A stretch of DNA of 64,000 nt, from the NCBI RefSeq assembly GCF_036324505.1, contig NC_086357.1, positions 26,998,793 through 27,062,792 on the forward strand. Reading direction: 5' to 3'. Made by a program: the position numbers and the translations under genes. The notes under the pieces were generated by a model. The model did not search any database, was not told the DNA's origin, and saw only the letters and a program-made list of their open reading frames with translations. Position 1 is the first letter of the stretch. Each line of letters starts with the position of its first letter. Below are positions 38,013-57,020 of the stretch, piece after piece. Origin of the DNA: Eleginops maclovinus. Its lineage: Eukaryota > Chordata > Actinopteri > Perciformes > Eleginopidae.

Positions 38013-41000
38013 TTTAATCATTTATCACCAGAAGCATTTGGGGTCAAACTTGTTGATTTGTATTATTTATTATTTTATGTCGTTCCCAGAAATGAATCAC
38101 GAGCGTAAACGTTGACAATCCTTAATATTAATATAATTAATATAAGTATTATTTTTATAAATGCATTCATTCTTTTATTATTAGATATATTTCTTATTAT
38201 AAATATTTATTTGAACATATTATCATTTATTATTATTATTATAAATGCAATAGTTGTTTTGGGATTCACATTTATTTTCTTGTGTTTTTTATTTATTTTA
38301 AAGACATCCACTATTTTTTCCTCTTATCTTCTTGTAGTGTTTGTATGAGCTGTATGGAAATAGCTGGAAAAAAGTGTGAACATGTTTGCATTTTTTGCTG
38401 AAACTGAAACAAATCCACTCATTTTAAAGCAAATCTGATGTGAGGATTTAACGGAGTGTTTTATTTAAAGTAACCCTTTCGTTGTCTCTGCAGGTCTGCA
38501 GACGAGTCAGGACGCTCGCTTCTACGCCTCCTCGTCCCGGTTTGATGACTTCAGCAATAAAGGCGAGCCCCTGGTGATCCAGTTCTCCGTGAAGCACGAG
38601 CAGAGCATCGACTGTGGGGGGGGCTACATCAAGCTGTTCCCCTCCAGCCTGAACCAGGAGGAGATGCACGGAGACTCCGTCTACAACATCATGTTCGGTC
38701 AGTGAGGAACCACTCACTAATTACTACAGTGATAGCAGTACCAGTAATCTGGATCTCCCCCCTTTTTTAATGTCTCTTTTCGATGTCTTTTCCATTCTGT
38801 AACATATTATAAATAAATATAAATTGCTTCTGTACCAGAGGCATGATGAACGGCAGACCCACCGGACATCCATCCCCTCTTTATTCTCCGTAAGCTGTCT
38901 CTGCCGTCTGACCAGACATCTGACCCCACCTCCTTATCTCTGGACTCATTAAACCCTTTCTGACCCACAGAGAGATTGTTTCCTGGCATCACTTTAACAT
39001 TTCAGCGGGGGAAATCTGTATTTTGGTTTGAGTTTGAGAGCGCACCCCCCCCCAGAGAGAGGGCGCACCCCCCCCAGAGAGAGGGCGCAGCGCCCCTGTA
39101 ACCTGGTTTAGACAAAACCCTGCTACAGTTTTCTGCTTCTACATGCAAACGAAAACTCATAAACCTTTTATATTTATTTACTATTTACTTCATTGTTTGT
39201 TTGTTGTGTTGTTCAGGTCCGGACATTTGCGGCCCCGGCACAAAGAAGGTTCACGTCATCTTTAACTACCAAGGAAAGAACCATCTGATCAACAAGGACA
39301 TCAGGTGCAAGGTGAGGAATCAATTCATCAATTACCAGGTTTACAAATACATTGTTTTGATGTCAACAATGCATGCATAAATACAGCAAGGCAGGGGGTG
39401 AGTGTTTGGGAGAGAAACTCCCTCTGTAACACAGGGATTTTAGATTTGCAGACCGTTTACATGCACTGTAGAACACACTACAGGAAAGGGGATTCCTTGG
39501 AAAGCAGAACTAACATTCCCTGTGCTCCCTGCAGGATGACGAGTACTCCCACCTGTACACGCTGATCGTGAACCCCGACAACACGTACGAGGTGAAGATC
39601 GACAACAAGAAGGTGGAGTCCGGCAGTCTGGAGGAGGACTGGGACTTACTGCCGCCCAAGAAAGTTAAAGACCCCGAAGCCAAGAAGCCGGAGGACTGGG
39701 ATGACCGGGAGAAGGTTCCCGACCCGGAAGACCAGAAACCAGAGGTCGGTCTGCTTCAGCAGCCTCTATGTTTTTTTTAAGGGGGTCTTTTTATTCAACA
39801 GTACACATTTGTCTTTTGCATTGATGATATAAGACATTTATTTTAAATTCTCCTTCTATTCTCGTTGTCAGGACTGGGACAAGGCAGAGAACATTCCCGA
39901 CCCCGACGCTAAGAAGCCAGAGGACTGGGACGAAGAGATGGACGGCGAGTGGGAGCCGCCAATGGTCGCCAACCCTGAATACAAGGTGACTTTATCTCAG
40001 GATGACAACCGAAAAACACCTCAAGGAAACCATTGACTTCCACACCAGGGGACAGGAAGGGATAACTCCTTCCTGTTTGTAATTTGCGATTCCTCTGACG
40101 TTGCCCTTTCTGTCTGGCGTTCACAGGGAGAGTGGAAGCCCAAAGAGATCTCCAATCCCGCCTACAAGGGGAAGTGGGTCCACCCTGAGGTCGACAACCC
40201 GGAGTACACGGCTGATTCTGAGATCTACAAATACGACAGCATCGGCGTGATCGGACTCGACCTGTGGCAGGTGAGACAACTCAGAAAGATACGGTGCAGA
40301 TAAAAGGGCAAAAGAGAAGACTTTCATATTAAATAAAGAAGCTAATCGCGCTTTAATGCTGGAAGGACACACACACCTATTATGTGAGGTGTTCTGTAAC
40401 TACATCCATCCAGGAATAGGTACACTGCCTTATTGGTGTTAATGCTAAGTCAGCATCAACGTATAAACTCTGTCCATACATCGAAACATTCAGCTCAATT
40501 AGGACAGTGTGGCTTTTCATTTCATCATTCATAATTTCAGTTATTTCAGAAATATTAACCATAATTCTGCTAAATTTCGCCACAGAAATGAATGGAAAAA
40601 CTGTCCAAAAATGTGACATCTTCATGCTACTCTAAACGCTAACTGTTCCTTTATACTTTCACCTAAAACAACAACAATAAAACCTCAAATGTTCCACACT
40701 TTCCTGACATTATGGGCATTAAACAACTTTGAAATCCCATTTTTACTTTTTGAATCCTTCCACCTCGTTTGAAACTTGGTAAAAGTGCCGTTCATTTCTG
40801 ATGTAGGAAAATGATTGGATGTGTTTGCATGAAGTTCCTGACGGCAAAACGTTGATTTGTTGTTGCTGCAGGTGAAGTCCTGGCACCATCTTTGATAACT
40901 TCCTGATCACCAACGACCCAAAGCTGGCAGAGGAAGTGGGAAACGACACGTGGGGTAAAACTAAGGTCAGTGCAAAACTTTATTGAATGTCTGCTCATGC

Positions 41001-41421
41001 ATTCGTCTATTGAGTAGTGTGTCATGGTTCTAGTCAAACAGAAGAAAAAGTAGGAATTAAACTAAATAATTTCACTAAATTATAAAGTGTTAGTATTTAA
41101 ACGTCCAATGGAACAACAGAACGATCTATTCTACGGTTGATTACTTATTCATCTCGTTGTCATCATGTGCATCCTCTGCAGGACGCCGAGAGGCTGATGA
41201 AGGAAAGCCAGGAGGAGGAGGAGAGGAAGAAGCGCGAGGAAGAGGATACTCAGAGGAAGGACGAGGCGAAGGAGGAGGACGACGAGGAGGAAGAGGAGAA
41301 GGATGAGGAGGAGGAAGGAGACGAAGAGGAAGATGAGGACGAGGAGGGAGACGAAGAAGAGCGGGAGGAGGATGAAGAGGACGACGAAGACACAGACTCT
41401 AAACTCAAGGATGAGTTATAA
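36840..41421 (+). CDS. calr: Calreticulin, 9 coding exons, one-base insertion in exon 8
   Basis: ER-lumenal Ca2+-buffering lectin chaperone of the calnexin cycle. Coding exons are 36840-36933, 37447-37548, 38494-38697, 39217-39311, 39535-39744, 39872-39985, 40127-40270, 40872-40965 and 41182-41421. Signal peptide [18 protein letters not shown]; mature start [20 protein letters not shown]. The globular lectin domain includes [14 protein letters not shown] and [14 protein letters not shown] (disulphide cysteines). The P-domain has repeated KPEDWD and GEWEPP/GEWKPK units. The tail is a long Asp/Glu stretch ending in the ER-retrieval signal KDEL before TAA. Exon 8 should be 93 bases but is 94: in GTGAAGTCCTGGCACC an extra T near 40,081+800 (position 40881) breaks VKSGTIFDNF and leads to an early stop if read literally. 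Without it the protein is 431 aa. A sequencing error is the simplest explanation. The paralogue (calr versus a teleost duplicate) is not settled. Confidence 0.95.
37935..38010. repeat. (ATT)n trinucleotide repeat in calr intron 2
   Basis: ATT/TTA array with one GAT interruption, followed by T-rich low-complexity sequence to about 38,310. Confidence 0.95.
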
Positions 41422-41452
41422 ACTCCCAACGCAGGAAGTGACTGTCAATGAG

Positions 41453-42150
41453 CCATAGAGTGGTGCAGGAATGAGTCAGCAAAACCCAGGAGTGAGTCAG
41501 CAGTTCAGCGCTTCCTGTTCCCTCGTCTGGAAGGGAAGGTGTTTGGTTGTTAGCCTGAAATAAGGTCCGGGTTCAAACAAGCTGAAGAGATTTTAACGTT
41601 CTGTACTACGACGAGGCAAGGGAAGACCCCACTGGGGAATTTAAAAACAGCTGTTGCTAACGACTGTCTAAATTGAGACAACTAAACATAATCATGCCCA
41701 ACGTTAGCCTCCTTTAGCTTAGCGGTGGTGACGTGAAGTCATGTGACCGTGCTGTAGTTCCTTTATAGCCCAACATTAGCCTCCTTTAGCTTAGCGGTGG
41801 TGACGTGAAGTCATGTGACCGTGCTGTAGTTCCTTTATAGCCCAACATTAGCCTCCTTTAGCTTAGCGGTGGTGACGTGAAGTCATGTGACCGTGCTGTA
41901 GTTCCTCTATATCCCAAAATTAGCCGCCTTTAGCTTAGCGGTGAAGACCTGAATTCGCGTGACCGTGCTGTAGTTCCTTTATAGCCCAGCGTTAGCTTCT
42001 TGCTTCAACTTGTTTGACTCGGAGATTATTTCCTGCAATAATCCGAAATCACACGGAGAAATCCCATTGGCTTTTTAGTGGAGGGAACCAGGGAGATGCT
42101 GCCTTCAGGGTCCCGAAACAGAAATAGGACATCCCTGCACCACTCTATAG
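41453..42150 (+). mobile_element. TIR-bounded non-autonomous element (MITE-like) in the calr 3' UTR
   Basis: The left end reads CCATAGAGTGGTGCAGGAATG (41453 onward). The right end is its near-perfect inverted copy, CATCCCTGCACCACTCTATAG (42130-42150). No transposase is encoded between them. The interior carries a 72-bp tandem array. The element sits after the calr stop codon and before the poly(A) signal, so it would be transcribed as part of the calr mRNA. A related copy lies near 59,996-60,452 and an internal fragment near 63,738-63,953. The superfamily is not determined; target-site duplications are unclear. Confidence 0.8.
41697..41985 (+). repeat. 72-bp minisatellite inside the calr 3' UTR element
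   Basis: Four units of period 72 (for example CCCAACATTAGCC at 41769 and 41841), the last one diverged. Each unit carries TTTAGCTTAGCGGTGG, a CRE-half/E-box-like TGACGTGA and an M-box-like TCATGTGACC. Confidence 0.93.
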
Positions 42151-43014
42151 GAAGGAGATGATCGACCCTCATGACTGACTGACACCCTGGGGTGGGAGGG
42201 GGTTTTTCATTTGTTTGTTTACAAAATAAGGAAGAAGATGAAAAAAAGGGCAATTATTGTTCTGTTTCCATGTGCTACTACTACTATAATTATAATGAAA
42301 CGAGGATTAGTGATAGGAATAATAAAAAAAGCGTCCATAAAAACGGGAATTCAATCAGTTTACACCCAAAAAAAGATATAAATTGTCATTCATGGAAAAA
42401 CACTTTGGTTTTTATGAAGTATAATGAAAGGCTGTATTTGGTATGCGGATAATACCATGGTTTTGTTTACCTCATTTGTTTGTCTTAATACGTGTGTTAT
42501 TTTTGTTGCTTTTTTTGCAGCCTGCCCTGTAACTACCCCTTTAAACCCTCTGGATCTCAAAGGACATTAATAGACGTCGGGTTATTTTACCTGCCTTCAC
42601 CTGCAGTTCTGGATTAAAACATGGATATTTGACAGCCTGTTGAGGGAAAAGTCATTGGATGGTTGACCGGGGTAAAATGAACTCCCTTGCATAGTTTTGT
42701 ACTGTATAGATTTTGGACTTCAGTGCACGTCCTGTAGTCTCGTGTGTCTGATTAAACTGTGCTGAGTCTCATGCGTACACGGACAGCACTCCAGTAGCCG
42801 GTTAGCTTTCATTCACTTTGTTTTTTCTCATAATACGTGTTCACAGAGTTCTCTTATGGATATCTCTGCACTGCTGTTCCCCAACACACGACCCCCCTCC
42901 CCCCTCCCCGTCTGACAGAGGATCCTTTTGTAAACACACATTTTGTACTAATGCTTGTAAAAGTGGGAAGATTTTCATGTTGCTGTGTGAAAAACAAAGA
43001 CAGGTGTTCTGTTC

Positions 43015-43020
43015 AATAAA
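43015..43020 (+). terminator. calr poly(A) signal
   Basis: AATAAA in GTTCAATAAAACC about 1.6 kb after the stop codon, within sequence typical of a 3' UTR end. A decayed inverted copy of this region lies near 56,870-56,980. Confidence 0.75.
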
Positions 43021-43480
43021 ACCGACCAGTGGAAAATAGCAGAAGGCTTCGTGTGTTTCCTTTTTAAATTTAAAATGGCTTATATTTATTTTTGTAGTGG
43101 AAAGTAAGAATATAGTTGGTGGGTTTATTTTTTTGTGTACATTTACTACACTACACCTGTACTCTGTGACATGTAAGGTAGTTTGTCATCATTGTAATAT
43201 TTTTTTTAATCACAAATTATTATTTCATTTTTAATATTATTATAATTAACTTTATTATTATTGTTATTATTATTATTATTATTACATATTTAATTTTATT
43301 TGTAATTATTTTGTTTCAGTATTTTTAACATTAATATTTAAATTGGTAGTAATATCGAAAATAATTAACAGCTGTTTGAGCGTAACTTAAAGTTTTATAA
43401 ACCTGAGATAAAGACAGTTTTTGGAATGATCTGAAATCTAAAGAGGCCTCTTCAGGTTACTTTCTGACGTCTTGAACCTG

Positions 43481-43554
43481 AGGCGCTGCTGGGATTTGAA
43501 CCCAGGATCTCCTGTTTACTAGACAGGCGCTTTGACCAGCTAAGCTACAGCATT
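43481..43554 (-). tRNA. tRNA-Thr(AGT)-like, outer left copy, weakened acceptor stem
   Basis: 74 nt. Anticodon stem-loop CCTGT-CTAGTAA-ACAGG gives anticodon AGT (Thr). The A-box-like TAGCTTAGCTGG and B-box GGTTCAAATCC are intact. The first two acceptor bases are A A against C C, so pairs 1-72 and 2-71 are lost. No TTTT Pol III terminator follows closely. Mirror copy at 56,338. Possibly a pseudogene. Confidence 0.75.
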
Positions 43555-44039
43555 TCTGTGAAGAGCCTCTTCTTCTTCCTAATCCCTTTAGTAAAGTATT
43601 TACTTTCAAAATATATAAACAACATGATCTGATGTTTAGTTGAAAGTAAAAGGTAAGATGTTGGAGAGACTTTTCACCTCTCCCTATGAACGTACATTTG
43701 AGTTACAGAGGCGTAAGATAGCCTTCCCCTACAAAGAAAATCCCCTCTTATTATGAAGGATATTTACCTTCTACAAACCCTCACATTTAGCCTATCATAA
43801 ATATTGTTGTTCTTCTTTGTTTTTGACCTAGTTTCAATCTGAGTGAGCAGAACTCCAGCTCTGACGACAGCTCTTCTGATTATTACATGTTAGACTCAAT
43901 AACTAGTGTGGCTTTCTCACAACACACACTTTCTCTTTGTATTTCCTACAAACACTTTGACTCGGTTGAAACAGACTGTATATTTACGGCTCTGACGGCA
44001 AATCAAAGAGACATAAGCAGAAGATTACATTCCAACATT

Positions 44040-44045
44040 TTTATT
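44040..44045 (-). terminator. Poly(A) signal of the left palindrome gene
   Basis: AATAAA on the minus strand, about 355 bases after the stop codon of the left gene. It is mirrored exactly at 55,847-55,852 for the right gene, which supports it as the functional 3' end. Confidence 0.65.
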
Positions 44046-44397
44046 GATTACTTAATAAATGATGAAAGCACGCAGCTCCGGGCAGAAACATATCAAATAT
44101 ATACAGATCGCCCCGTTGCTGCGTGTCATGCAGGAAAAAACCGGAAACTCCCGGAGAAAACCTCGTGACCTTAAGCCCCTGAAGCGTTTGACCTCAATTA
44201 ATTGTGTTAGGTCAACAAATATCACATAACAGTATAAGGTAAGTAAAAAGCAATAACATAACATTTACATCAAAATAATAGGAGGGAAAAAACGCAAACT
44301 CCCGGAGAAAACCCAGTACCCTGAGAGCTCAAGTCGGCTAAAGATGGGAAGCGACGTATGGGGGGGGGGTAGGACCTGAGCTCTGTATAAAATTCCT

Positions 44398-47300
44398 CTA
44401 AATATCCCAAGCAGGTGCAGGAGAGCGTCTGAACGGCTTCATGATCGCTCGGCCTACACGATGGAAGAACTTGCAGACCGCGCCGCGCTTCTTCGGTTGG
44501 CTCGTCAGGTGGAGTTTAAAGACGGAGGCCATTGCATTATCCACTAATTCTTCTTTTAGATAGGCTGATGCCAGCACCGTCTCCGCATCGCCAAAATGCT
44601 CGCACAGATCGTTGTAAACTAGCTTGTCGACGCTCTTGAAAGTTTCCGGGGTGATTTCGAAATCCTCTCCCTCCACTTTGGCCCATACTTTCTCCAAAAG
44701 GTACTCTGCGACGTCCTTTGGGTCTCCAAGTGTGCTGTTAACCTTTGAGTTTTTGTAAATCCGTGAAACCAGCTTCATTACAAGGATTCTGACAAATACT
44801 TTGGTTATCTCTTCCTGTGCAGTTGCGTCCTGCACTGATTTTGCACCTGAGTCAGCAGGCACTGCCGATGTTTGTGCGAGTGACCGTAACTCAGGTGCCG
44901 CCAAAGCCTTCTCCACCCTCTTGCTTTGGCTGCCGGCCTGACTGGACATCCACCACCCGAAAAGTCCCTGGAAGTGCCACATTTTATCTCTTATTTCTTG
45001 AAGCAGGGCTTCACGTGGCGGGGCAACGAATATTCTTGTGACTCCTGGGACAACCTCTGGTACTATCATCCCCTCTGTGGTGTGACTGAGGAGGAGATCA
45101 CTAAGCAGCTTTGTGAAATTCAGGCTTTTTCCATCTAAAAGCTGTTGTACTCCTACATACATCTCAACCTCATTATCACCCTGTTGTTCCTCACCCCCGT
45201 TCCTCAGCAGATCCTCAACCTCCTCATCAAAGGACCTCATTGATTCCTCTGTATCATGGTGGGATTCGGGGCAGAATTGTTCCTTCATCTCTGCCGCCAT
45301 CCGATGAATGAACAGTTTGGCAAACTGTTTGGCAAAAAAGTTTTTGATCTTTGTGCCGACTCCTTTCAAGCACGACTCGGGCACATCCCAAGGCTCTAAC
45401 ATGAGACTTTCAGAGTCCCTGACCTCCAGGCTCTCAGCCTCTTCAACGATGGACCTTGCTATGTCTCCCGAAATATTTTTGATCCACTCGGAGGTGTCAG
45501 ATTTAAGAACCTCAATCTCTATATTTTTCATATTATCCAAAAAATTGTCTTCGATTCCAGAGAACTCTTTTATAATTATTCCCTGGACGGCTTCGATTTC
45601 TATCGCAAAGCTTCCCTCTGACCCTCTTGAGACTGTCCTTGAGGTCCTAGAATAGACCGATCCAGTGCCTGAGGCTTTGGACCGAACAGATCCAGTACCT
45701 GAGGCTTTGGACCGAACAGATCCAGTACCTAAGGCTAGGGACTGAACAGATCCTTTACCTGAGGTTTTGGACCGAACAGATCCTTCGCCTGAGGCTTTGG
45801 ACTGAACAGATCCAGTACCTAAGGCTAGGGACTGAACAGATCCTTTATCTGAGGCTTTGGACCGAACAGATCCTTCGCCTGAGGCTTTGGACTGAACAGA
45901 TCCAGTACCTAAGGCTAGGGACTGAACAGATCCTTTATCTGAGGCTTTGGACCAAACAGATCCAGTGCCTGAGGCTTTGGACCGAACAGATCCAGTACCT
46001 AAGGCTAGGGACTGAACAGATCCTTTACCTGAGGCTTTGGACCAAACAGATCCTTCCCCTGAGGCTTTGGACCGAACAGATCCTTCCCCTGAGGCTTTGG
46101 ACCGAACAGATCCGGTACCTAAGGCTTTTGACTGAACAGATCCTTTCCCTGAGGCTTTGGACTGAACAGATCCAGTACCTAAGGCTTTGGAGTGAACAGA
46201 TCCGGTTCCAGAGGCTTTGGACCAAACAGATCCAGTACCTGAGGCTTTGGACCGAACAGATCCTTCCCCTGAGGCTATGGACTGAACAGATCTAGTACCT
46301 GAGGCCTTGGACCGAACAGATCCTTCCCTTGAGGCTTTGGAGTGAACAGATCCGGTACCTAAGGCATTGAACTGAACAGATCCGGTTCCAGAGGCTTTGA
46401 ACTGAACAGATCCGGTTCCAGAGGCTTTGGACCGAACAGATCCGGTTCCAGAGGCTTTGGACTGAACAGATCCAGTACCTGAGGCTATGGACTGAACAGA
46501 TCTAGTACCTGAGGCCTTGGACCGAACAGATCCTTCCCCTGAGGCTTTGGAGTGAACAGATCCGGTACCTAAGGCATTGAACTGAACAGATCCGGTTCCA
46601 GAGGCTTTGGAACGAACAGATCCGGTACCTGAGGCTTTGGACTGAACAGATCCAGTACCTGAGGCTTTGGACTGAACAGATCCAGTACCTAAGACTTTGG
46701 ACTGAACAGATCTAGTACCTGAGGCTTTGGACTGAACAGATCCCGTGCCTGAGGCTTTGGACTGAACAGATCCAGTACCTGAGGCTTTGGACTGAACAGA
46801 TCCAGTACCTAAGGGTTTGGAATGAACAGATCCAGTACCTGTGTCTGAGCGCTGCCAGTCCTTGTTGCTGGTACCCTCTTCCTCTGATCCGTCGTCCATC
46901 ACCTCAATCAAGTCCTCCTGACTTGCTTTCTGCCTACGCGCTGGAAATCGGAACGTGCTTTTCATCTTAGCCACGAAGGCTTTCAACATATCGCAGGCAT
47001 GACTGACCATCACACCAAGTCTGTTTGGGGGAGTGACACGCCTAAACCCATCCTTCAAAGTGTCCTCACTGGCATTGAGTACAGAGTTGGCGCTTTCCAT
47101 AGCCTCCCTGATAATCATTTCGGTCAAGCTTTTTGCGCTGTCGCAGTCGTCAGGGACCTTCACATCCAGGACATCAGCAACAGCCTGAGGGAGAATGTTT
47201 CCAATACAGGACCGAACACACTCCTCAGAAACCACAGTTTTTGTGACCTTAATGATAGCCAGCAAGGCTTCTGTCACCAAACTGACAAAATTCAAAACCA

Positions 47301-47463
47301 GCTCTGCCACAATCAGTTTTATGGCATCGTCTGGTGTTCCTTGATCCAGCAAATCCCACTGCTCCTCACTCATCCGTTTGCAAAAGCTTACAAAAAATGG
47401 ACGAATGTCGTCCATTGCGATTTCTGTCATTCTAGCTGACTGAGAACTTCCTGCTCTAGACAT
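44398..47463 (-). CDS. Intronless repeat-bearing protein of unknown family, left copy (1021 aa)
   Basis: I do not recognise this family and assign no function. One open frame starts MSRAGSSQSARMTEIAMDD with a good Kozak context (A at -3) and ends PFRRSPAPAWDI. Residues about 1-205 are acidic/hydrophobic and predicted helical. About 208-607 are 40 decapeptides of the form G-[TEK]-G-S-V-[QRWH]-S-K-A-[SL], rich in Ser and Lys, encoded by a 30-bp minisatellite. About 615-1021 are again helical. Three segments end in amphipathic Lys/Phe-rich helices (LKAFVAKMKSTFRF; KNFFAKQFAKLFIHRM; CKFFHRVGRAIMKPFRR). No signal peptide or clear transmembrane segment. A long intact frame, a mirrored promoter, a poly(A) signal and a second intact copy argue that it is a real gene. 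It is transcribed away from the palindrome centre. Confidence 0.88.
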   Translation of the reverse strand: MSRAGSSQSARMTEIAMDDIRPFFVSFCKRMSEEQWDLLDQGTPDDAIKLIVAELVLNFVSLVTEALLAIIKVTKTVVSEECVRSCIGNILPQAVADVLDVKVPDDCDSAKSLTEMIIREAMESANSVLNASEDTLKDGFRRVTPPNRLGVMVSHACDMLKAFVAKMKSTFRFPARRQKASQEDLIEVMDDGSEEEGTSNKDWQRSDTGTGSVHSKPLGTGSVQSKASGTGSVQSKASGTGSVQSKASGTRSVQSKVLGTGSVQSKASGTGSVQSKASGTGSVRSKASGTGSVQFNALGTGSVHSKASGEGSVRSKASGTRSVQSIASGTGSVQSKASGTGSVRSKASGTGSVQFKASGTGSVQFNALGTGSVHSKASREGSVRSKASGTRSVQSIASGEGSVRSKASGTGSVWSKASGTGSVHSKALGTGSVQSKASGKGSVQSKALGTGSVRSKASGEGSVRSKASGEGSVWSKASGKGSVQSLALGTGSVRSKASGTGSVWSKASDKGSVQSLALGTGSVQSKASGEGSVRSKASDKGSVQSLALGTGSVQSKASGEGSVRSKTSGKGSVQSLALGTGSVRSKASGTGSVRSKASGTGSVYSRTSRTVSRGSEGSFAIEIEAVQGIIIKEFSGIEDNFLDNMKNIEIEVLKSDTSEWIKNISGDIARSIVEEAESLEVRDSESLMLEPWDVPESCLKGVGTKIKNFFAKQFAKLFIHRMAAEMKEQFCPESHHDTEESMRSFDEEVEDLLRNGGEEQQGDNEVEMYVGVQQLLDGKSLNFTKLLSDLLLSHTTEGMIVPEVVPGVTRIFVAPPREALLQEIRDKMWHFQGLFGWWMSSQAGSQSKRVEKALAAPELRSLAQTSAVPADSGAKSVQDATAQEEITKVFVRILVMKLVSRIYKNSKVNSTLGDPKDVAEYLLEKVWAKVEGEDFEITPETFKSVDKLVYNDLCEHFGDAETVLASAYLKEELVDNAMASVFKLHLTSQPKKRGAVCKFFHRVGRAIMKPFRRSPAPAWDI
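45653..46840 (-). repeat. Coding 30-bp minisatellite in the left palindrome gene
   Basis: Forty tandem 30-bp units, each encoding one decapeptide. Frame is kept throughout because the unit is ten codons. Variant units (GEG, GKG, REG; QSK, RSK, WSK, QFN, QSLAL) occur in recurrent runs of two to four, showing local block duplications. Confidence 0.97.
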
Positions 47464-47706
47464 GGTCCTTATTAATACGGTTACTAACTAACAAATGAAT
47501 AATGTTATTAACTAACAGATTAGTGGTTATTAACTAACAGATTAGTGGTTATTAACTAACAAGTGAGTAATGTTAATAACTCTGTGATGCTGGATTATCT
47601 CTGGATGCTGGATTATCTCTGGATGCTGGATTATCTCTGGATGCTGGCTGTAAAATGATCTGCTGGGTGAATCTGCTGCTGTCTCTCTCAGTAAGAACTG
47701 TATTCC

Positions 47707-47848
47707 TATAAACTTTGAGGTGACGTCATCCACATCAAAGCCACCATAGAACTGACCTCGGAGATCAGAGCAGAATGACGTCATCAAGCAATGGAACGTT
47801 CGCTAGGCTCCGCCCCCAAATGAAGCCTGCCTGTTGTTGCTAGGCAAC
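47707..47848 (-). promoter_or_regulatory. Promoter of left palindrome gene: X-box, two CREs, TATA-like
   Basis: Read toward the gene on the minus strand, there is a palindromic RFX X-box GTTGCCTAGCAAC (47,836-47,848) and a GC-box-like GGGGGCGGAG. Two perfect CREs TGACGTCA follow (47,776-47,783 and 47,721-47,728), then TTTATAGG (about 47,707-47,712). The mirror copy upstream of the right gene keeps all these elements. Confidence 0.75.
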
Positions 47849-48287
47849 AGAAGAAGCGTGTTACTTTTTGCATCGTAGTTTTAAAAACAGCGTCCGGCGC
47901 ATCCCCACAGAAACACTGATACACCAGGATCCCTTCTGCTTTCTGTGGGTTCAATAAGTGCTAAATCAACTGTTTAAATTAAGCATGGAAATGTACATTG
48001 CTTTGGCTAACGTGTTTGTTTTGTGTTCTGTGTTTTCAGAGGTTCAAATGAAGTGGAGACCTGTTTAAAAAGCCTTAAACAAAGACAGAGGAAGGGATGA
48101 GTTGTGTGACGCGTCCTCTGTTTTCCTCCTGCTGTTTAAGTTCAGGCAGACATCGAGAGAAAGCCACAAAAAAGCATTTAAAATATACCACTGAATGGAT
48201 TCTGTAAACATAAGAGGGGTTTTTTAGCTGCTTTGTATGTCTTGAAGTGACCTGAACATGTTTTAAAACACACACAAAGTTCTGCTG

Positions 48288-48310
48288 AACCCTAACCCTA
48301 ACCCTAACCC
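48288..48310. repeat. Short interstitial telomeric repeat (CCCTAA)n, left arm
   Basis: Almost four units of CCCTAA. Mirrored by TTAGGG units at about 51,635-51,656 in the right arm. Confidence 0.9.
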
Positions 48311-48879
48311 ACACTCATAATATTATATTGAATAAATAAATGAACTGTAATGTGCTTGTAATGTTATGTTGTTAAAATATCTTCAATCATGCAGAGTTTC
48401 TGACAACAATTGCTCAAATTAAAGTAAAGAATAGAGTTTACTTGTGGTGTTGTTGTCTAAAAGTCTCCAAATGTATTTCTAATATAAAGTGAACATGTTT
48501 TTAAGTGACCTGTTACCTGCAGACCCTAAGATGACAGCAGAGCTCTGTAAAAACAGTACAAATAGGATGAAATATTATCACCTGCATCATTTAAGCCTCT
48601 AACCTCTACAGAGACACTGTTTTATTATTCTAATTTGGCTTTAACGTTGGTTGTGTTTATGGATTTTGCAGACATTTTGGCGATGATGTTAGTTCTTATT
48701 TTTACCTAGAAATGTAATCCTCAATTCCTACAAGAAGTCCATAACAAAGTGTGTATCCAATATGCAAACGCTCAGACCCTTATGGACTAAAACGTCACAA
48801 CTTCTATTATTTTAATTCCACAGACATAAAAGCATGGATTATAATACCAACACTTCAATCCGTATGATAAAGAAGAAAA

Positions 48880-48908
48880 GGTGCTGTGGATAAATTGGTC
48901 AAAGCACC
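48880..48908 (+). ncRNA. Truncated tRNA-derived hairpin, left arm (unproven)
   Basis: GGTGCTGTGG, a short middle part and TTGGTCAAAGCACC form a stem of about ten pairs with one mismatch. It resembles the tRNA-Thr acceptor and D-arm start closed on itself, with the anticodon and T arms deleted. Mirror copy at 51,032-51,060. No Pol III B box, so expression is doubtful. Confidence 0.35.
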
Positions 48909-49033
48909 TTTGTATATATTTGTAGTTTCATAAATCTGAGATTAAGACAATTTTGGGTTACCTTGAGCATAATTATCTCAAATCTAAAGAGGCATCTTCA
49001 GTTATTCAGTTAAAATCTGAAGTCTTTAACCTG

Positions 49034-49107
49034 AGGCGCTGCTGGGATTTGAACCCAGGATCTCCTGTTTACTAGACAGGCGCTTTGACCAGCTAAGCCA
49101 CAACACC
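49034..49107 (-). tRNA. tRNA-Thr(AGT), left arm inner copy 1
   Basis: 74 nt with full cloverleaf potential. Acceptor GGTGTTG pairs with CAGCGCC including two G-U type pairs. A box TGGCTTAGCTGG, anticodon loop CTAGTAA, B box GGTTCAAATCC. A TTTT Pol III terminator lies about 20 nt downstream (in CAGATTTTAAC). Mirror copy 50,833-50,906 has a better acceptor (GGTGCTG). This pair is the best candidate for expressed tRNA. Confidence 0.9.
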
Positions 49108-49386
49108 TCTGTGAAGGTTCGCTTCTTCTTCCAAATCCCTTTAGTAAAATAGTTTCATATAAAAATATACAAACAACATGATCTGATGGTTATTGAAAGT
49201 ATAAGGTAAGACTTCAGTGAGACTCTCACCTCTCTATGAATGAATTTGAGTTAAATAGTCATAAGATAGTCAAAGCCTTTGGTCATCCTGACAGGAATTA
49301 CATCAAGTCTAAAGAGGATTTTTAAGTTGAACTTTTTAGATTTCTTCTGAAGCCATTTTCAGTTCATGCTTGTCAGAAGATACAAA

Positions 49387-49460
49387 GGTGCTGTGGCTTA
49401 GCTGGTCAAAGCGCCTGTCTAGTAAACAGGAGATCCTGGGTTCAAATCCCAGCAGCGCCT
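49387..49460 (+). tRNA. tRNA-Thr(AGT), left arm inner copy 2
   Basis: 74 nt. Acceptor GGTGCTG pairs with CAGCGCC. A and B boxes and anticodon loop CTAGTAA are intact. Downstream sequence has only TTT, not TTTT, in the first 40 bases, so termination may be inefficient. Mirror copy at 50,480-50,553. Confidence 0.88.
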
Positions 49461-49689
49461 CAGGTTAAAGACTGCAGAGTTTAAAAGAATAACCTGAAGA
49501 TGCCTCTTTGGATTTGAGATTATTATGCTCAACGTAACCAAACACGGTCTTTATCTCAGGTTTATAAAACTACAAATAATGTTCATAAAAGACGTTCACT
49601 AAGGCCAGCACATTGGAGATGTCTGTAGTAAGAATGTTCAGTGATAGGTTAACCACATAATCTCAAGGTGGATTACAAAAGACGTGTTT

Positions 49690-50245
49690 GGAGATTTTGT
49701 CATTTCTGTGTATAAAGGTTATTTGTAGTTTGATAAACCTGGGATAAAGACAGTTTTTGGGTCATCTTCAGCAGAACTATATCAAATCATAAGAGACATC
49801 TCCAGGTTATTCAGTTCAACTCTGAAGTCTTTAACCTCAGGCAGTAGCCTATAGTAAAAAGTGTTCAATGAAAACGATATAAACATTATGATCTCATGTT
49901 TCATTAAAAGTATAAGGTTAGACTTTAGAGAGACTCTCACCTCTCTATGAAGGAATTTGAGTTAAATGGACATAAGATAGTCAGAGTCTTTGGTCATCCT
50001 GAGAGGAATTACATCAACTCTAAAGAGGATTTGGAGTTTATTTACAGTTAGGTTATCAAAGGCTGCGCTGCGGTCTGAGGCGCTGCTGGGATTTGAATCC
50101 AGGATCTCCTGTTTACTAAACAGGTACTTTAACCAGCTAAGCCACAGCACTTCATCTGCTTGAGTCAAACATGAACTGAAGATACCATCAGAATGAACCT
50201 AAAAAGATAAACTTTAAAATCCTCTTCCTCTCAGGATAACCCAAA
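49690..50245. other. Palindrome spacer: degenerate tRNA cassette
   Basis: Unpaired central segment. It is itself a diverged copy of the cassette that surrounds the other tRNAs (block ACTCTCACCTCTCTATGA, block GGTCATCCTGA, a tRNA-like element, and block TATCTCAGGTTTATAAA-type). The palindrome thus grew from an array of tRNA cassettes in alternating orientation. Confidence 0.8.
50078..50151 (-). pseudogene. tRNA-Thr-like pseudogene in the palindrome spacer
   Basis: 74 nt, anticodon loop TTAGTAA still with AGT. The first acceptor pair is A-C, the D-arm side reads AAAGTACC instead of AAAGCGCC, and the T stem has a G-to-A change (CTGGATTCAAATCCCAG) that breaks both pairing and the B box. Likely not functional. 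Confidence 0.75.
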
Positions 50246-50479
50246 CATTTGGACAAGTCTTTTGTAATCCACCTTGAGATTATGTGGTTAACCTATTACT
50301 GAACATTCTTACTACAGACATCTCCAATGTGCTGGCCTTAGTGAACGTCTTTCATGAACATTATTTGTAGTTTTATAAACCTGAGATAAAGACCGTGTTT
50401 GGTTACGTTGAGCATAATAATCTCAAATCCAAAGAGGCATCTTCAGGTTATTCTTTTAAACTCTGCAGTCTTTAACCTG

Positions 50480-50553
50480 AGGCGCTGCTGGGATTTGAAC
50501 CCAGGATCTCCTGTTTACTAGACAGGCGCTTTGACCAGCTAAGCCACAGCACC
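50480..50553 (-). tRNA. tRNA-Thr(AGT), right arm inner copy 2
   Basis: Mirror copy of 49,387-49,460 and identical in all elements seen: GGTGCTG acceptor, TGGCTTAGCTGG A box, CTAGTAA loop, GGTTCAAATCC B box. No close TTTT terminator. Confidence 0.88.
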
Positions 50554-50832
50554 TTTGTATCTTCTGACAAACATGAACTGAAAATGGCTTCAGAAGAAAT
50601 CTAAAAAGTTCAACTTAAAAATCCTCTTTAGACTTGATGTAATTCCTGTCAGGATGACCAAAGACTTTGACTATCTTATGACTATTTAACTCAAATTCAT
50701 TCATAGAGAGGTGAGAGTCTCACTGAAGTCTTACCTTATACTTTCAATAACCATCAGATCATGTTGTTTGTATATTTTTATATGAAACTATTTTACTAAA
50801 GGGATTTGGAAGAAGAAGCGAACCTTCACAGA

Positions 50833-50906
50833 GGTGCTGTGGCTTAGCTGGTCAAAGCGCCTGTCTAGTAAACAGGAGATCCTGGGTTCAAATCCCAGCA
50901 GCGCCT
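50833..50906 (+). tRNA. tRNA-Thr(AGT), right arm inner copy 1
   Basis: 74 nt, well paired acceptor (GGTGCTG with CAGCGCC), intact A and B boxes, AGT anticodon, and TTTT at about 50,926 as a Pol III terminator. Best-formed tRNA in the window. Confidence 0.92.
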
Positions 50907-51031
50907 CAGGTTAAAGACTTCAGATTTTAACTGAATAACCTGAAGATGCCTTTTAGATTTGAGATAATTATGCTCAAGGTAACCCAAAATTGTCTTAATC
51001 TCAGATTTATGAAACTACAAATATATACAAA

Positions 51032-51060
51032 GGTGCTTTGACCAATTTATCCACAGCACC
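51032..51060 (-). ncRNA. Truncated tRNA-derived hairpin, right arm (unproven)
   Basis: Mirror of 48,880-48,908; the same hairpin with GGTGCT/AGCACC stem. The flanking cassette sequence is shared. Confidence 0.35.
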
Positions 51061-51634
51061 TTTTCTTCTTTATCATACCGATTGAAATGTTGGTATTATA
51101 ATCCATGCTTTTATGTCTGTGGAATTAAAATAATAGAGGTTGTGACGTTTTAGTCCATAAGGGTCTGAGCGTTTGCATATTGGATACACACTTTGTTATG
51201 GACTTCTTGTAAGAATTGAGGATTACATTTCTAGGTAAAAATAAGAACTAACATCATCGCCAAAATGTCTGCAACATCCATAAACACAACCAACGTTAAA
51301 GCCAAATTAGAATAATAAAACAGTGTCTCTGTAGAGGTTAGAGGCTTAAATGATGCAGGTGATAATATTTCATCATAGTTAGCCTACTGTTTTTACAGAG
51401 CTCTGCTGTCATCTTAGGGTCTGCAGGTAACAGGTCACTTAAAAACATGTTCACTTTATATTAGAAATACATTTGGAGACTTTTAGACAACAACACCACA
51501 AGTAAACTCTATTCTTTACTTTAATTTGAGCAATTGTTGTCAGAAACTCTGCATGATTGAAGATATTTTAACAACATAACATTACAAGCACATTACAGTT
51601 CATTTATTTATTCAATATAATATTATGAGTGTGT

Positions 51635-51656
51635 GTTAGGGTTAGGGTTAGGGTTC
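51635..51656. repeat. Short interstitial telomeric repeat (TTAGGG)n, right arm
   Basis: Between three and four TTAGGG units, mirror of the left-arm copy. Confidence 0.9.
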
Positions 51657-52093
51657 AGCAGAACTTTGTGTGTGTTTTAAAACATGTTCAGGTCACTTCA
51701 AGACATACAAAGCAGCTAAAAACCCCTCTTATGTTTACAGAAACTATTCAGTGGTATATTTTAAATGCTTTTTTGTGGCTTTCTCTCGATGTCTGCCTGA
51801 ACTTAAACAGCAGGAGGAAAACAGAGGACGCGTCACACAACTCATCCCTTCCTCTGTCTTTGTTTAAGGCTTTTTAAACAGGTCTCCACTTCATTTGAAC
51901 CTCTGAAAACACAGAACACAAAACAAACACGTTAGCCAACGCAATGTACATTTCCATGCTTAATTTAAACAGTTGATTTAGCACTTATTGAACCCACAGA
52001 AAGCGGAAGGGATCCTGGTGTATCAGTGTTTCTGTGGGGATGCGCCGGACGCTGTTTTTAAAACTACGATGCAAAAAGTAACACGGTTCTTAT

Positions 52094-52235
52094 GTTGCCT
52101 AGCAACAACAGGCAGGCTTCATTTGGGGGCGGAGCCTAGCGAACGTTCCATTGCTTGATGACGTCATTCTGCTCTGATCTCCGAAGTCAGTTCTATGGCG
52201 GCTTTGATGTGGATGACGTCACCTCAAAGTTTATA
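52094..52235 (+). promoter_or_regulatory. Promoter of right palindrome gene: X-box, two CREs, TATA-like
   Basis: RFX X-box GTTGCCTAGCAAC at 52,094-52,106, GC-box-like GGGGGCGGAG at about 52,135, perfect CREs TGACGTCA at 52,159-52,166 and 52,214-52,221, and TTTATAGG at about 52,230. A start near 52,260 would give a 5' UTR of about 200 bases with short tandem repeats (an 18-bp CATCCAGAGATAATCCAG unit, then a roughly 22-bp GTTAGTTAATAACCACTAAT unit). Around the X-box the two arms differ at several bases, but the box itself is identical. Confidence 0.75.
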
Positions 52236-52460
52236 GGAATACAGTTCTTACTGAGAGAGACAGCAGCAGATTCACCCAGCAGATCATTTTACAGCCAGCA
52301 TCCAGAGATAATCCAGCATCCAGAGATAATCCAGCATCACAGAGTTATTAACATTACTCACTTGTTAGTTAATAACCACTAATCTGTTAGTTAATAACCA
52401 CTAATCTGTTAGTTAATAACATTATTCATTTGTTAGTTAGTAACCATATTAATAAGGACC

Positions 52461-55400
52461 ATGTCTAGAGCAGGAAGTTCTCAGTCAGCTAGAATGACAG
52501 AAATCGCAATGGACGACATTCGTCCATTTTTTGTAAGCTTTTGCAAACGGATGAGTGAGGAGCAGTGGGATTTGCTGGATCAAGGAACACCAGACGATGC
52601 CATAAAAATGATTGTGGCAGAGCTGGTTTTGAATTTTGTCAGTTTGGTGACAGAAGCCTTGCTGGCTATCATTAAGGTCACAAAAACTGTGGTTTCTGAG
52701 GAGTGTGTTCGGTCCTGTATTGGAAACATTCTCCCTCAGGCTGTTGCTGATGTCCTTGATGTGAAGGTCCCTGACGACTGCGACAGCGCAAAAAGCTTGA
52801 CCGAAATGATCATCAGGGAGGCTATGGAAAGCGCCAACTCTGTACTCAATGCCAGTGAGGACACTTTGAAGGATGGGTTTAGGCGTGTCACTCCCCCAAA
52901 CAGACTTGGTGTGATGGTCAGTCATGCCTGCGATATGTTGAAAGCCTTCGTGGCTAAGATGAAAAGCACGTTCCGATTTCCAGCGCGTAGGCAGAAAGCA
53001 AGTCAGGAGGACTTGATTGAGGTGATGGACGACGGATCAGAGGAGGACGGTACCAGCAACAAGGACTGGCAGCGCTCAGACACAGGTACTGGATCTGTTC
53101 AGTCCAAACCTTTAGGTACTGGATCTGTTCAGTCCAAAGCCTCAGGTACCGGATCTGTTCAGTCCAAAGCCTCAGGCACGGGATCTGTTCAGTCCAAAGC
53201 CTCAGGTACTAGATCTGTTCAGTCCAAAGCCTTAGGTACTGGATCTGTTCAGTCCAAAGCCTCAGGTACTGGATCTGTTCAGTCCAAAGCCTCAGGTACT
53301 GGATCTGTTCAGTCCAAAGCCTCTGGAACCGGATCTGTTCAGTTCAAAGCCTCTGGTACTAGATCTGTTCAGTCCAAAGCCTCAGGTACTGGATCTGTTC
53401 AGTCCAAAGCCTCAGGTACTGGATCTGTTCGTTCCAAAGCCTCTGGAACCGGATCTGTTCAGTTTAAAGCCTTAGGTACCGGATCTGTTCACTCCAAAGC
53501 CTCAGGGGAAGGATCTGTTCAGTCCAAAGCCTCTGGAACCGGATCTGTTCGGTCCAAAGCCTCTGGAACCGGATCTGTTCAGTTCAAAGCCTCTGGAACC
53601 GGATCTGTTCAGTTCAATGCCTTAGGTACCGGATCTGTTCACTCCAAAGCCTCAAGGGAAGGATCTGTTCGGTCCAAGGCCTCAGGTACTAGATCTGTTC
53701 AGTCCATAGCCTCAGGGGAAGGATCTGTTCGGTCCAAAGCCTCAGGTACTGGATCTGTTTGGTCCAAAGCCTCTGGAACCGGATCTGTTCAGTCCAAAGC
53801 CTTAGGTACCGGATCTGTTCGGTCCAAAGCCTCAGGGGAAGGATCTGTTTGGTCCAAAGCCTCAGGTAAAGGATCTGTTCAGTCCCTAGCCTTAGGTACT
53901 GGATCTGTTCGGTCCAAAGCCTCAGGGGAAGGATCTGTTCGGTCCAAAGCCTCAGGGGAAGGATCTGTTTGGTCCAAAGCCTCAGGTAAAGGATCTGTTC
54001 AGTCCCTAGACTTAGGTACTGGATCTGTTCGGTCCAAAGCCTCAGGGGAAGGATCTGTTCAGTCCAAAGCCTCAGGTAAAGGATCTGTTCAGTCCCTAGC
54101 CTTAGGTACTGGATCTGTTCGGTCCAAAGCCTCAGGCGAAGGATCTGTTTGGTCCAAAGCCTCAGGTAAAGGATCTGTTCAGTCCCTAGCCTTAGGTACT
54201 GGATCTGTTCGGTCCAAAGCCTCAGGCACTGGATCGGTCTATTCTAGGACCTCAAGGACAGTCTCAAGAGGGTCAGAGGGAAGCTTTGCGATAGAAATCG
54301 AAGCCGTCCAGGGAATAATTATAAAAGAGTTCTCTGGAATCGAAGACAATTTTTTGGATAATATGAAAAATATAGAGATTGAGGTTCTTAAATCTGACAC
54401 CTCCGAGTGGATCAAAAATATTTCGGGAGACATAGCAAGGTCCATCGTTGAAGAGGCTGAGAGCCTGGAGGCCAGGGACTCTGAAAGTCTCATGTTAGAG
54501 CCTTGGGATGTGCCCGAGTCGTGCTTGAAAGGAGTCGGCACAAAGATCAAAAACTTTTTTGCCAAACAGTTTGCCAAACTGTTCATTCATCGGATGGCGG
54601 CAGAGATGAAGGAACAATTCTGCCCCGAATCCCACCATGATACAGAGGAATCAATGAGGTCCTTTGATGAGGAGGTTGAGGATCTGCTGAGGAACGGGGG
54701 TGAGGAACAACAGGGTGATAATGAGGTTGAGATGTATGTAGGAGTACAACAGCTTTTAGATGGAAAAAGCCTGAATTTCACAAAGCTGCTTAGTGATCTC
54801 CTCCTCAGTCACACCACAGAGGGGATGATAGTACCAGAGGTTGTCCCAGGAGTCACAAGAATATTCGTTGCCCCGCCACGTGAAGCCCTGCTTCAAGAAA
54901 TAAGAGATAAAATGTGGCACTTCCAGGGACTTTTCGGGTGGTGGATGGCCAATCAGGCCGGCAGCCAAAGCAAGAGGGTGGAGAAGGCTTTGGAGGCACC
55001 TGAGTTACGGTCACTCACACAAACATCGGCAGTGCCTGCTGACTCAGGTGCAAAATCAGTGCAGGACGCAACTGCACAGGAAGAGATAACCAAAGTATTT
55101 GTCAGAATCCTTGTAATGAAACTTGTTTCACGGATTTACAAAAACTCAAAGGTGAACAGCACACTTGGAGACCCAAAGGACGTCGCAGAGTACCTTTTGG
55201 AGAAAGTATGGGCCAAAGTGGAGGGAGAGGATTTCGAAATCACCCCGGAAACTTTCAAGAGCGTCGACAAGCTAGTTTACAACGATCTGTGCGAGCATTT
55301 TGGCGATGCGGAGACGGTGCTGGCATCAGCCTATCTAAAAGAAGAATTAGTGGATAATGCAATGGCCTCCGTCTTTAAACTCCACCTGACGAGCCAACCG

Positions 55401-55496
55401 AAGAAGCGCGGCGCGGTCTGCAAGTTCTTCCATCGTGTAGGCCGAGCGATCATGAAGCCGTTCAGACGCTCTCCTGCACCTGCTTGGGATATTTAG
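52461..55496 (+). CDS. Intronless repeat-bearing protein of unknown family, right copy (1011 aa)
   Basis: Inverted twin of the gene at 44,398-47,463 and not recognised. Outside the repeat array I count about seven amino-acid differences in some 620 (for example KMIVAEL for KLIVAEL, EEDGTS for EEEGTS, WWMANQAG for WWMSSQAG). The array has 39 decapeptides instead of 40, which explains the 10-aa length difference, but the order of variants differs in the middle, so more than one unit has been gained or lost. The C-terminal amphipathic basic helix and the final PAWDI are identical. No stop or frameshift interrupts it. Both copies staying open argues for selection or recent gene conversion. Confidence 0.88.
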   Translation: MSRAGSSQSARMTEIAMDDIRPFFVSFCKRMSEEQWDLLDQGTPDDAIKMIVAELVLNFVSLVTEALLAIIKVTKTVVSEECVRSCIGNILPQAVADVLDVKVPDDCDSAKSLTEMIIREAMESANSVLNASEDTLKDGFRRVTPPNRLGVMVSHACDMLKAFVAKMKSTFRFPARRQKASQEDLIEVMDDGSEEDGTSNKDWQRSDTGTGSVQSKPLGTGSVQSKASGTGSVQSKASGTGSVQSKASGTRSVQSKALGTGSVQSKASGTGSVQSKASGTGSVQSKASGTGSVQFKASGTRSVQSKASGTGSVQSKASGTGSVRSKASGTGSVQFKALGTGSVHSKASGEGSVQSKASGTGSVRSKASGTGSVQFKASGTGSVQFNALGTGSVHSKASREGSVRSKASGTRSVQSIASGEGSVRSKASGTGSVWSKASGTGSVQSKALGTGSVRSKASGEGSVWSKASGKGSVQSLALGTGSVRSKASGEGSVRSKASGEGSVWSKASGKGSVQSLDLGTGSVRSKASGEGSVQSKASGKGSVQSLALGTGSVRSKASGEGSVWSKASGKGSVQSLALGTGSVRSKASGTGSVYSRTSRTVSRGSEGSFAIEIEAVQGIIIKEFSGIEDNFLDNMKNIEIEVLKSDTSEWIKNISGDIARSIVEEAESLEARDSESLMLEPWDVPESCLKGVGTKIKNFFAKQFAKLFIHRMAAEMKEQFCPESHHDTEESMRSFDEEVEDLLRNGGEEQQGDNEVEMYVGVQQLLDGKSLNFTKLLSDLLLSHTTEGMIVPEVVPGVTRIFVAPPREALLQEIRDKMWHFQGLFGWWMANQAGSQSKRVEKALEAPELRSLTQTSAVPADSGAKSVQDATAQEEITKVFVRILVMKLVSRIYKNSKVNSTLGDPKDVAEYLLEKVWAKVEGEDFEITPETFKSVDKLVYNDLCEHFGDAETVLASAYLKEELVDNAMASVFKLHLTSQPKKRGAVCKFFHRVGRAIMKPFRRSPAPAWDI
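53086..54240 (+). repeat. Coding 30-bp minisatellite in the right palindrome gene
   Basis: Thirty-nine tandem units with consensus GGATCTGTTCAGTCCAAAGC plus CTCAGGTACT. The first five and last few units match the left gene in order; the middle does not. Confidence 0.97.
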
Positions 55497-55846
55497 AGGA
55501 ATTTTATACAGAGCTCAGGTCCTACCCCCCCCCATACGTCGCTTCCCATCTTTAGCCGACTTGAGCTCTCAGGGTACTGGGTTTTCTCCGGGAGTTTGCG
55601 TTTTTTCTCTCCTATTATTTTGATGTAAATGTTATGTTATTGCTTTTTACTTACCTTATACTGTTATGTGATATTTGTTGACCTTACACATTTAACTGAG
55701 GTCAACGCTTCAGGGGCTTAAGGTCACGAGGTTTTCTCCGGGAGTTGCCGGTTTTTTCCTGCATGACACGCAGCAACGGGGCGATCTGTATATATTTGAT
55801 ATGTTTCTGCCCGGAGCTGCGTGCTTTCATCATTTATTAAGTAATC

Positions 55847-55852
55847 AATAAA
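55847..55852 (+). terminator. Poly(A) signal of the right palindrome gene
   Basis: AATAAA in GTAATCAATAAAAATG, about 350 bases after the stop codon, mirror of the left copy. Confidence 0.65.
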
Positions 55853-56337
55853 AATGTTGGAATGTAATCTTCTGCTTATGTCTCTTTGATTTGCCGTCAG
55901 AGCCGTAAATATACAGTCTGTTTCAACCGAGTCAAAGTGTTTGTAGGAAATACAAAGAGAAAGTGTGTGTTGTGAGAAAGCCACACTAGTTATTGAGTCT
56001 AACATGTAATAATCAGAAGAGCTGTCGTCAGAGCTGGAGTTCTGCTCACTCAGATTGAAACTAGGTCAAAAACAAAGAAGAACAACAATATTTATGATAG
56101 GCTAAATGTGAGGGTTTGTAGAAGGTAAATATCCTTCATAATAAGAGGGGATTTTCTTTGTAGGGGAAGGCTATCTTACGCCTCTGTAACTCAAATGTAC
56201 GTTCATAGAGAGAGGTGAAAAGTCTCTCCAACATCTTACCTTTTACTTTCAACTAAACATCAGATCATGTTGTTTATATATTTTGAAAGTAAATACTTTA
56301 CTAAAGGGATTAGGAAGAAGAAGAGGCTCTTCACAGA

Positions 56338-56411
56338 AATGCTGTAGCTTAGCTGGTCAAAGCGCCTGTCTAGTAAACAGGAGATCCTGGGTTCAAATCC
56401 CAGCAGCGCCT
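56338..56411 (+). tRNA. tRNA-Thr(AGT)-like, outer right copy, weakened acceptor stem
   Basis: Mirror of 43,481-43,554 with the same A A start opposite C C and the same TAGCTTAGC A box. No TTTT within 50 bases downstream. The shared defects mean they existed before the inverted duplication or have been copied by gene conversion. Confidence 0.75.
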
Positions 56412-56869
56412 CAGGTTCAAGACGTCAGAAAGTAACCTGAAGAGGCCTCTTTAGATTTCAGATCATTCCAAAAACTGTCTTTATCTCAGGTTTATAAAAC
56501 TTTAAGTTACGCTCAAACAGCTGTTAATTATTTTCAATATTACTACCAGTTGTTACCAGTTTAAATATTAATGTTAAAAATACTGAAACAAAATAATTAC
56601 TAATAAAATTAAATATGTAATAATAATAATAACAATAATAAAGTTAATTATAATAACAATATAAAACATTTAATAATAATTACAGTAATTAAAATGTGAA
56701 TTACAATGATTAGAAACTACCCAGCATGTCACAGAGTGCAGGTGTTATGTATTATATACACACAAAAAAGTAAAAGTACCCACCAACTACACTCTTACTT
56801 TCCACTACGAAAGTAAATATAATATTATATAAATATAAGCCATTTTAAATTTAAAGAATCCTTCTGCTA

Positions 56870-57020
56870 TTTTCCACTGGTTGGTTTTATTTGTAATGTT
56901 TTTCACACAGCAACATGAACATCCTCCCACTTTAGCATTAGTACAAAATGTGTGTTTACAAAAGGATCCTCTGTCAGACATCAAATGCCCTTTGAGATCG
57001 AGAGGTTTAATACATAATAT
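56870..57020 (-). pseudogene. Fragment of the calr 3' UTR captured at the end of the right arm
   Basis: On the minus strand it matches two calr 3' UTR pieces. One holds CTGACAGAGGATCCTTTTG and CCAGTGGAAAATAGCAGAAGG (left-arm equivalents about 42,912-43,045). The other is TTAAACCTCTCGATCTCAAA (equivalent about 42,541-42,560). The roughly 340 bases between them in calr are missing. Non-coding remnant with many substitutions. Confidence 0.85.

Follow-up and report, generated by a model that had tools for sequence, protein, structure and literature searches.

Large gene-bearing palindromes are usually put down to the absence of recombination between X, Y or W chromosomes and their partners, and the palindrome literature that we found deals mostly with mammalian sex chromosomes. 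Where ectopic gene conversion drives the concerted evolution of a multigene family, the coding sequences (CDS) and proximal promoters of its members are far more alike than their outer flanks. In the available part of one report, the arms of human Y palindromes are described as at least 99.9% identical and maintained by conversion, and most human palindromes above 99% identity as carrying testis genes (PMC3403216). Among teleosts, the X and Y chromosomes of Xiphophorus hold arrays of mc4r and other genes that can be as long as 1-1.5 Mb, and the available portion of that report mentions neither gene conversion nor the word 'palindrome' (PMC13277934).

Here we describe a palindrome beside the calreticulin gene (calr) of Eleginops maclovinus that carries two intact, divergent copies of an orphan gene. 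The window, by which we mean the whole stretch of DNA analysed, is 64,000 nucleotides long (C9:26998793-27062792), and the genome searched was the assembly of 606,306,633 bases in 27 contigs. We give a probability of roughly 70% to the reading that the orphan gene beside calr underwent an inverted duplication and that the inner 6.3 kb of each arm was later homogenised by inter-arm gene conversion (or similar templated repair), the outer flank keeping its older divergence.

With mammalian X and Y ampliconic palindromes the locus shares inverted arms, intact gene twins, multi-copy genes and arms whose likeness exceeds what the duplication's age would lead one to expect. It differs from them in being 14.5 kb long, in having arms of ~99% rather than 99.9% identity (the human figure as given in the available part of PMC3403216), and in adjoining an ordinary gene on a chromosome without known sex linkage in a reportedly sex-changing species. 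Like the Xiphophorus arrays, it consists of local near-identical gene copies in a teleost. It resembles families under concerted evolution in where its copies are most alike, and departs from that general class in that the family is an orphan one, its two C9 members form a palindrome and the coding sequence holds a minisatellite. The locus functions in the manner of an ampliconic palindrome, though on no known sex chromosome, and we do not file it under the sex-chromosome class. We found no printed account of a comparable autosomal or fish palindrome, a result judged partly by title and not proof that none is in print.

BLAST comparison of the window with itself returned a single large inverted repeat, 42910-49687 against 56979-50253, with 94.65% identity over 6,808 columns and a spacer of 565 bp. 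Homology picks up again at 42541-42568 / 57010-56984 (28 columns, score 39 against a best of 27 in 300 shuffles), and no right-arm partner for 42569-42911 was found in this self-comparison. The palindrome extends over 42541-57010, with a left arm of 7.1 kb and a right arm of 6.8 kb, bearing out a preliminary description of the sequence that had placed a palindrome with an unpaired centre of about 0.55 kb at 42540-57020. Its divergent pair of intact genes also stands, each arm holding one uninterrupted open reading frame (ORF): 1021 amino acids (aa), minus strand, in the left arm and 1011 aa, plus strand, in the right. Outside the coding minisatellite and the outer flank the arms are 98.9% identical as counted raw (55 of 5,164 sites differ), which is borderline against a benchmark of ~99%, and ~99.1% identical when ten mismatches at 48989-49000 are treated as an offset pair of indels. 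The arms had been described as keeping their elements in mirror order; identity along them is not uniform, being ~99% in the inner tract, ~90% in the minisatellite as aligned and ~88% in the outer flank.

To place this difference on a common scale we used as yardstick a third copy, a broken one, at locus L021 (C10:3213001-3223000), counting only columns ungapped in all three sequences. In the outer flank, 43030-43340 (268 columns), the arms differ from each other at 33 sites, the left arm from C10 at 39 and the right arm from C10 at 33. The inner non-coding DNA at 43650-44397 (735 columns) has 6 differences between the arms and 52 from either arm to C10; inner coding DNA (900 columns) has 7 against 44 and 44, and the stretch directly inside the step, 43341-43557 (213 columns), has 2 against 20 and 20, making the step a sharp one. 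By this yardstick the inner arms are about seven times less different than the outer flank, and Fisher's test on the left-right and left-C10 counts, outer against inner non-coding, gives p = 8e-6, a value that is only a guide since the counts share sequences. Over one inner stretch matched by a broken copy on C7, the arms differ at 0 of 408 sites and lie 60 of 380 sites from C7. Because the arms diverge in the outer flank about as much as they do from C10, and far less inside, we conclude that an old inversion had its inside homogenised at a later time. We infer that arm-to-arm gene conversion, rather than a second duplication, probably produced this homogenisation.

The same signature is seen in several paralogues, which together with the homogenised inner arms and the intact twins supports the local ampliconic-type structure proposed in the preliminary description. 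The family was found by genome searches with the C9 protein and one paralogue as queries, leaving out of the count matches confined to the query repeat region (C4 at ~55-62 kb, C5, C9 at 25.97 and 29.12 Mb, C13, C22, C23 and others) as well as the weak C11 matches at 3.06 Mb. Intact relatives, with ~33-45% identity in the matched pieces, comprise an inverted pair separated by ~78 kb on C4, three copies on C23, of which two lie inverted at a distance of 42 kb, and two copies on C6, one with a broken frame; family fragments occur on C4, C7, C8, C10 and C14. The C4 pair differs at 1 of 1,869 CDS sites, 22 of 670 upstream and 10 of 1,054 downstream. On C23, L014 and L018 differ at 5/1,881 CDS sites (silent divergence dS 0.0024), 41/585 upstream and 1/85 downstream, and their silent sites differ at 1 of ~422, so that purifying selection is no explanation for the CDS identity; for L016 and L018 the counts are 6/1,878, 18/418 and 5/425. 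The C6 pair, L019 and L020, makes a weaker case, with 5/2,258 over a stretch slightly beyond the frame against 16/1,180 and 1/190 in the flanks. Three predicted proteins of the toothfish Dissostichus mawsoni contain four copy segments with 0 differences over 380 aa; compared across species, by contrast, residues 704-871 are 65-73% identical to five cryonotothenioid proteins. For each of the three D. mawsoni proteins the contig given has 4,129,320 bases, and the gene models run copy into copy, which suggests direct tandem copies there rather than a palindrome. Copies more alike than both their flanks and sister-species copies thus occur on C4, on C23 (weakly for L014/L016) and in D. mawsoni, and homogenisation appears to be a habit of the family.

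Several observations weigh against this account. A mosaic of small conversion tracts was looked for inside the arms and none was found, the inner substitutions lying evenly along the arms (p 0.17-0.97 for variance/mean and 0.46 for the longest identical run). The outer flank gives only 268 comparable sites, AT-rich and of low complexity, the arms at ~99% fall below the human Y figure cited above (99.9%, from the available part of PMC3403216), and L014 and L016 show little contrast (CDS 1/1,878, upstream 5/470, downstream 0/458). With this even spread, one event across the whole arm, or else a second duplication, would fit as well, and a two-step history can be drawn in which an older short inverted flank lay at the right and the gene with the inner region was duplicated once, recently, between the flanks, so that inner identity reflects young age and not conversion. 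Such a history, hard to separate from one whole-arm conversion, would also suit the one abrupt step near 43341 and the inverted tRNA-Thr units, which supply homology for the event; the paralogues on C4, C23 and, more weakly, C6 peak in identity over the gene, which favours a recurrent process, and we regard the two-step course as unlikely, if far from negligible. Under the preferred reading, arm-to-arm conversion, acting once or repeatedly, would have homogenised the inside.

The inverted duplication itself is very probably real. The preliminary description had allowed for an assembly artefact, which would be a fold-back read chimera or a haplotig joined inverted, and palindromes are difficult to assemble from continuous long reads (CLR). 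The available part of the assembly report describes a male sequenced by PacBio CLR and Hi-C, 606,289,673 bases in 26 scaffolds, built from 10-40 kb reads with a read N50 of 22 kb (PMC10298351), of which part could span 14.5 kb. A fold-back or haplotig would have uniform near-allelic identity up to the borders; here divergence goes from ~1% to ~12% near 43341, the outer flank having diverged as far as a paralogue from a different contig. With, in addition, the ~1% inner divergence, a different order of minisatellite repeats in the two arms, a right arm that ends in a shortened calr 3' untranslated region (UTR) and a window that contains zero N letters, we consider an artefact very improbable.

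A palindrome of a young sex-linked region, comparable to those on the mammalian Y or X, had been the other option put forward. It would be in keeping with inverted arms near 99%, intact multi-copy genes and promoter motifs of a germ-cell kind. E. maclovinus is described, in the available part of the source, as a protandrous hermaphrodite (PMC9530513), which argues against a young sex chromosome, and we rejected sex linkage as the leading reading on that report; the adjoining gene is calr, and further members of the family are spread over several other chromosomes. Taken together this leaves sex linkage with little probability.

If the conversion reading is right, a conversion-homogenised palindrome on an apparently ordinary chromosome of a sex-changing fish would separate two normally confounded causes, lack of crossing-over and selection for many alike copies of reproductive genes, and the locus is small enough for single long reads to span, making arm-to-arm conversion directly measurable. 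Beyond the first description it offers an older inversion with a younger inside, a calr 3' UTR tag for the likely direction of copying and a pattern repeated in the family. A wider proposal, which we hold tentatively and rate below even odds, is an ampliconic system without a sex chromosome: a fast-evolving male-germline family of perch-like fishes, near chromosome ends, might repeatedly form inverted pairs or palindromes seeded at tRNA genes, its copies kept alike by gene conversion, so that palindromes would arise from germ-cell gene biology and not from absent crossing-over. The copies on C4, C6, C7, C9, C10, C14 and C23, the tRNA unit on C19 and the C8 fragment at 18.3 Mb lie no more than ~18% from a chromosome end, and the weak match on C8 at 9.46 Mb (E 5e-7) lies farther in; this placement, noticed afterwards, is only suggestive.

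The likely direction of copying can be read from calr, an exon of which (39514-39777) matches PDB calreticulin chains with E 2.7e-32. Pieces of the calr 3' UTR are carried by the right arm; most simply, the parental side would be the left, from which the right arm was probably copied, here and inverted, after the gene unit had come to adjoin calr. As a mechanism we envisage that the gene unit would have been duplicated in inverted orientation at the calr site, from left to right as the UTR pieces suggest, through a break and a template switch via the inverted tRNA-Thr units that fill the centre. The C10 protein fragment is 90.5% identical to the twins over 168 residues, and five cryonotothenioid proteins are 65-73% identical over residues 704-871; the C10 copy being the closer, the inversion probably dates from the Eleginops line. 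At L021 (5409-7637) the outer flank is inverted relative to the gene fragment, with a junction that corresponds to window position 43030, directly after the calr poly(A) signal, so that rearrangement near a tRNA-Thr unit has probably happened more than once.

The protein of the twin genes is a member of an orphan family. Outside the minisatellite the twins have 7 replacement and 6 silent differences (replacement to silent rate ratio, dN/dS, 0.32), too few to say much; among diverged paralogues dN/dS is 0.65-0.83. The twin repeat arrays differ in length by exactly one 10-residue unit. Aligned with gaps of whole units only, they share 16 of 37 distinct unit sequences, and the order of their repeats differs. 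In the alignment of the arms the array differs at 113 of 1,153 sites; at ~10% against ~1% elsewhere, the array changes faster than homogenisation erases. Among the candidates scored, notothenioid hypothetical proteins are 62-77% identical to residues 1-205 of the C9 protein, and the uncharacterised LOC118495494 of Sander lucioperca is 37% identical to the paralogue L009. These belong to the same protein family as the twins, and most are listed without a function. The Dissostichus eleginoides relatives P0012 and P0014 are labelled as an operon protein of methanogens and as a tRNA thiolation protein, ill-fitting names that are probably annotation errors.

We compared nine promoters of the family (two on C9, two on C4, three on C23 and two on C6). 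An exact copy of TGACGTCA, which we take to be a cyclic AMP response element (CRE), is present in all nine; an exact GTTGCC[T/A]AGCAAC, presumably an X-box, in eight, the ninth being one base off; and what we take to be a GC box in eight, all within ~425 bases of the ATG. The 450 bp upstream of the left C9 gene is only ~56% identical overall to that of three paralogues. In 222,208 bases, comprising the window and 17 loci, several of them chosen for holding the gene, all eight exact X-boxes and 13 of 15 CREs fall inside these promoters. X-box and CRE together upstream of the start codon are thus common to the copies, as in a candidate RFX/CRE-type germ-cell promoter, from which we predict expression in male germ cells or other ciliated cells. 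Extra alike copies would then be predicted to raise the dose of a fast-evolving reproductive protein. An MHC (major histocompatibility complex) class II type X-Y module was dropped as a candidate, the exact CRE starting 59-97 bases past the start of the X-box and CCAAT boxes being present in only 3 of 9 promoters. According to the available part of one study, RFX2 and CREM each act as a master regulator in mouse spermiogenesis, and, as a point against our reading, their target sets are largely separate (PMC4498915), so joint X-box and CRE are no proven testis signature.

ARAGORN found seven tRNA-Thr sequences and Rfam the identical seven, three per arm and one in the spacer, which agrees with the tRNA-type sequences first noted in both arms. 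TTTT lies within 60 bases downstream in two of the seven, and they are candidate rather than proven active genes. Inverted tRNA-Thr units are nested at the centre, 48700-51240: the end of either arm is itself an inverted pair (197 columns, 91-92%), and the spacer is a half-inverted third copy of the unit. A tRNA-derived short interspersed element was considered and dropped, the tRNA parts scoring 55-70 bits against the tRNA model and the flanking unit being confined, among the matches listed of 261, to C9, C10, C7 and C19; other tRNA clusters among these matches share little beyond the tRNA itself. On C19 the flank unit lies at 4742-5148 of L036 (C19:1938501-1948500), and tblastn at E 1e-5 found no gene trace in these 10 kb. 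The telomeric TTAGGG repeats reported for both arms are present, but short, with two overlapping 12-mers per arm.

Table. Positions of the palindrome, its genes and associated sequences in the window.
Feature	Position	Strand	Remarks
Left palindrome arm	42541..49687	.	inverted match to 50253-57010
Right palindrome arm	50253..57010	.	inverted match to left arm
Spacer, mostly a rearranged, more diverged tRNA-Thr unit copy	49688..50252	.	
Homogenised inner tract, left	43341..49687	.	partner 50253-56561; 55 raw substitutions/5,164 sites outside minisatellite
Outer flank with older divergence, left	43030..43340	.	partner 56562-56876; 33/268 ungapped sites differ
Left twin gene	44398..47463	-	uninterrupted ORF, 1021 aa
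Right twin gene	52461..55496	+	uninterrupted ORF, 1011 aa
In-frame 30-bp minisatellite, left gene	45659..46841	-	396 residues, 39.6 units
In-frame 30-bp minisatellite, right gene	53083..54235	+	386 residues, 38.6 units
Left promoter module (putative)	47721..47848	-	exact CRE 47721-47728 and 47776-47783, X-box 47836-47848, GC box between
Right promoter module (putative)	52094..52221	+	X-box 52094-52106, GC box, CRE 52159-52166 and 52214-52221
calr, later exons to KDEL stop (41407-41421) and 3' UTR	38469..43045	+	adjoins left arm; 3' end inferred from AATAAA 43015-43020
calr 3' UTR remnant, outer end of right arm	56876..57010	-	like 42912-43030 and 42541-42568; 42569-42911 missing
tRNA-Thr(AGT)-like, outer left	43480..43554	-	ARAGORN, Rfam
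tRNA-Thr(AGT)-like	49033..49107	-	ARAGORN, Rfam
tRNA-Thr(AGT)-like	49387..49461	+	ARAGORN, Rfam
tRNA-Thr(AGT)-like, spacer	50077..50151	-	ARAGORN, Rfam
tRNA-Thr(AGT)-like	50479..50553	-	ARAGORN, Rfam
tRNA-Thr(AGT)-like	50833..50907	+	ARAGORN, Rfam
tRNA-Thr(AGT)-like, outer right	56338..56412	+	ARAGORN, Rfam
Short interstitial TTAGGG repeat, left	48290..48307	-	
Short interstitial TTAGGG repeat, right	51636..51653	+	

A 72-bp minisatellite flanks the palindrome on both sides, at 41696-41996, where it sits downstream of the calr stop codon, and at 60089-60451 and 63737-63955. The copies at 41696-41996 and 60089-60451 are in opposite orientation and 94% identical over 301 bases.

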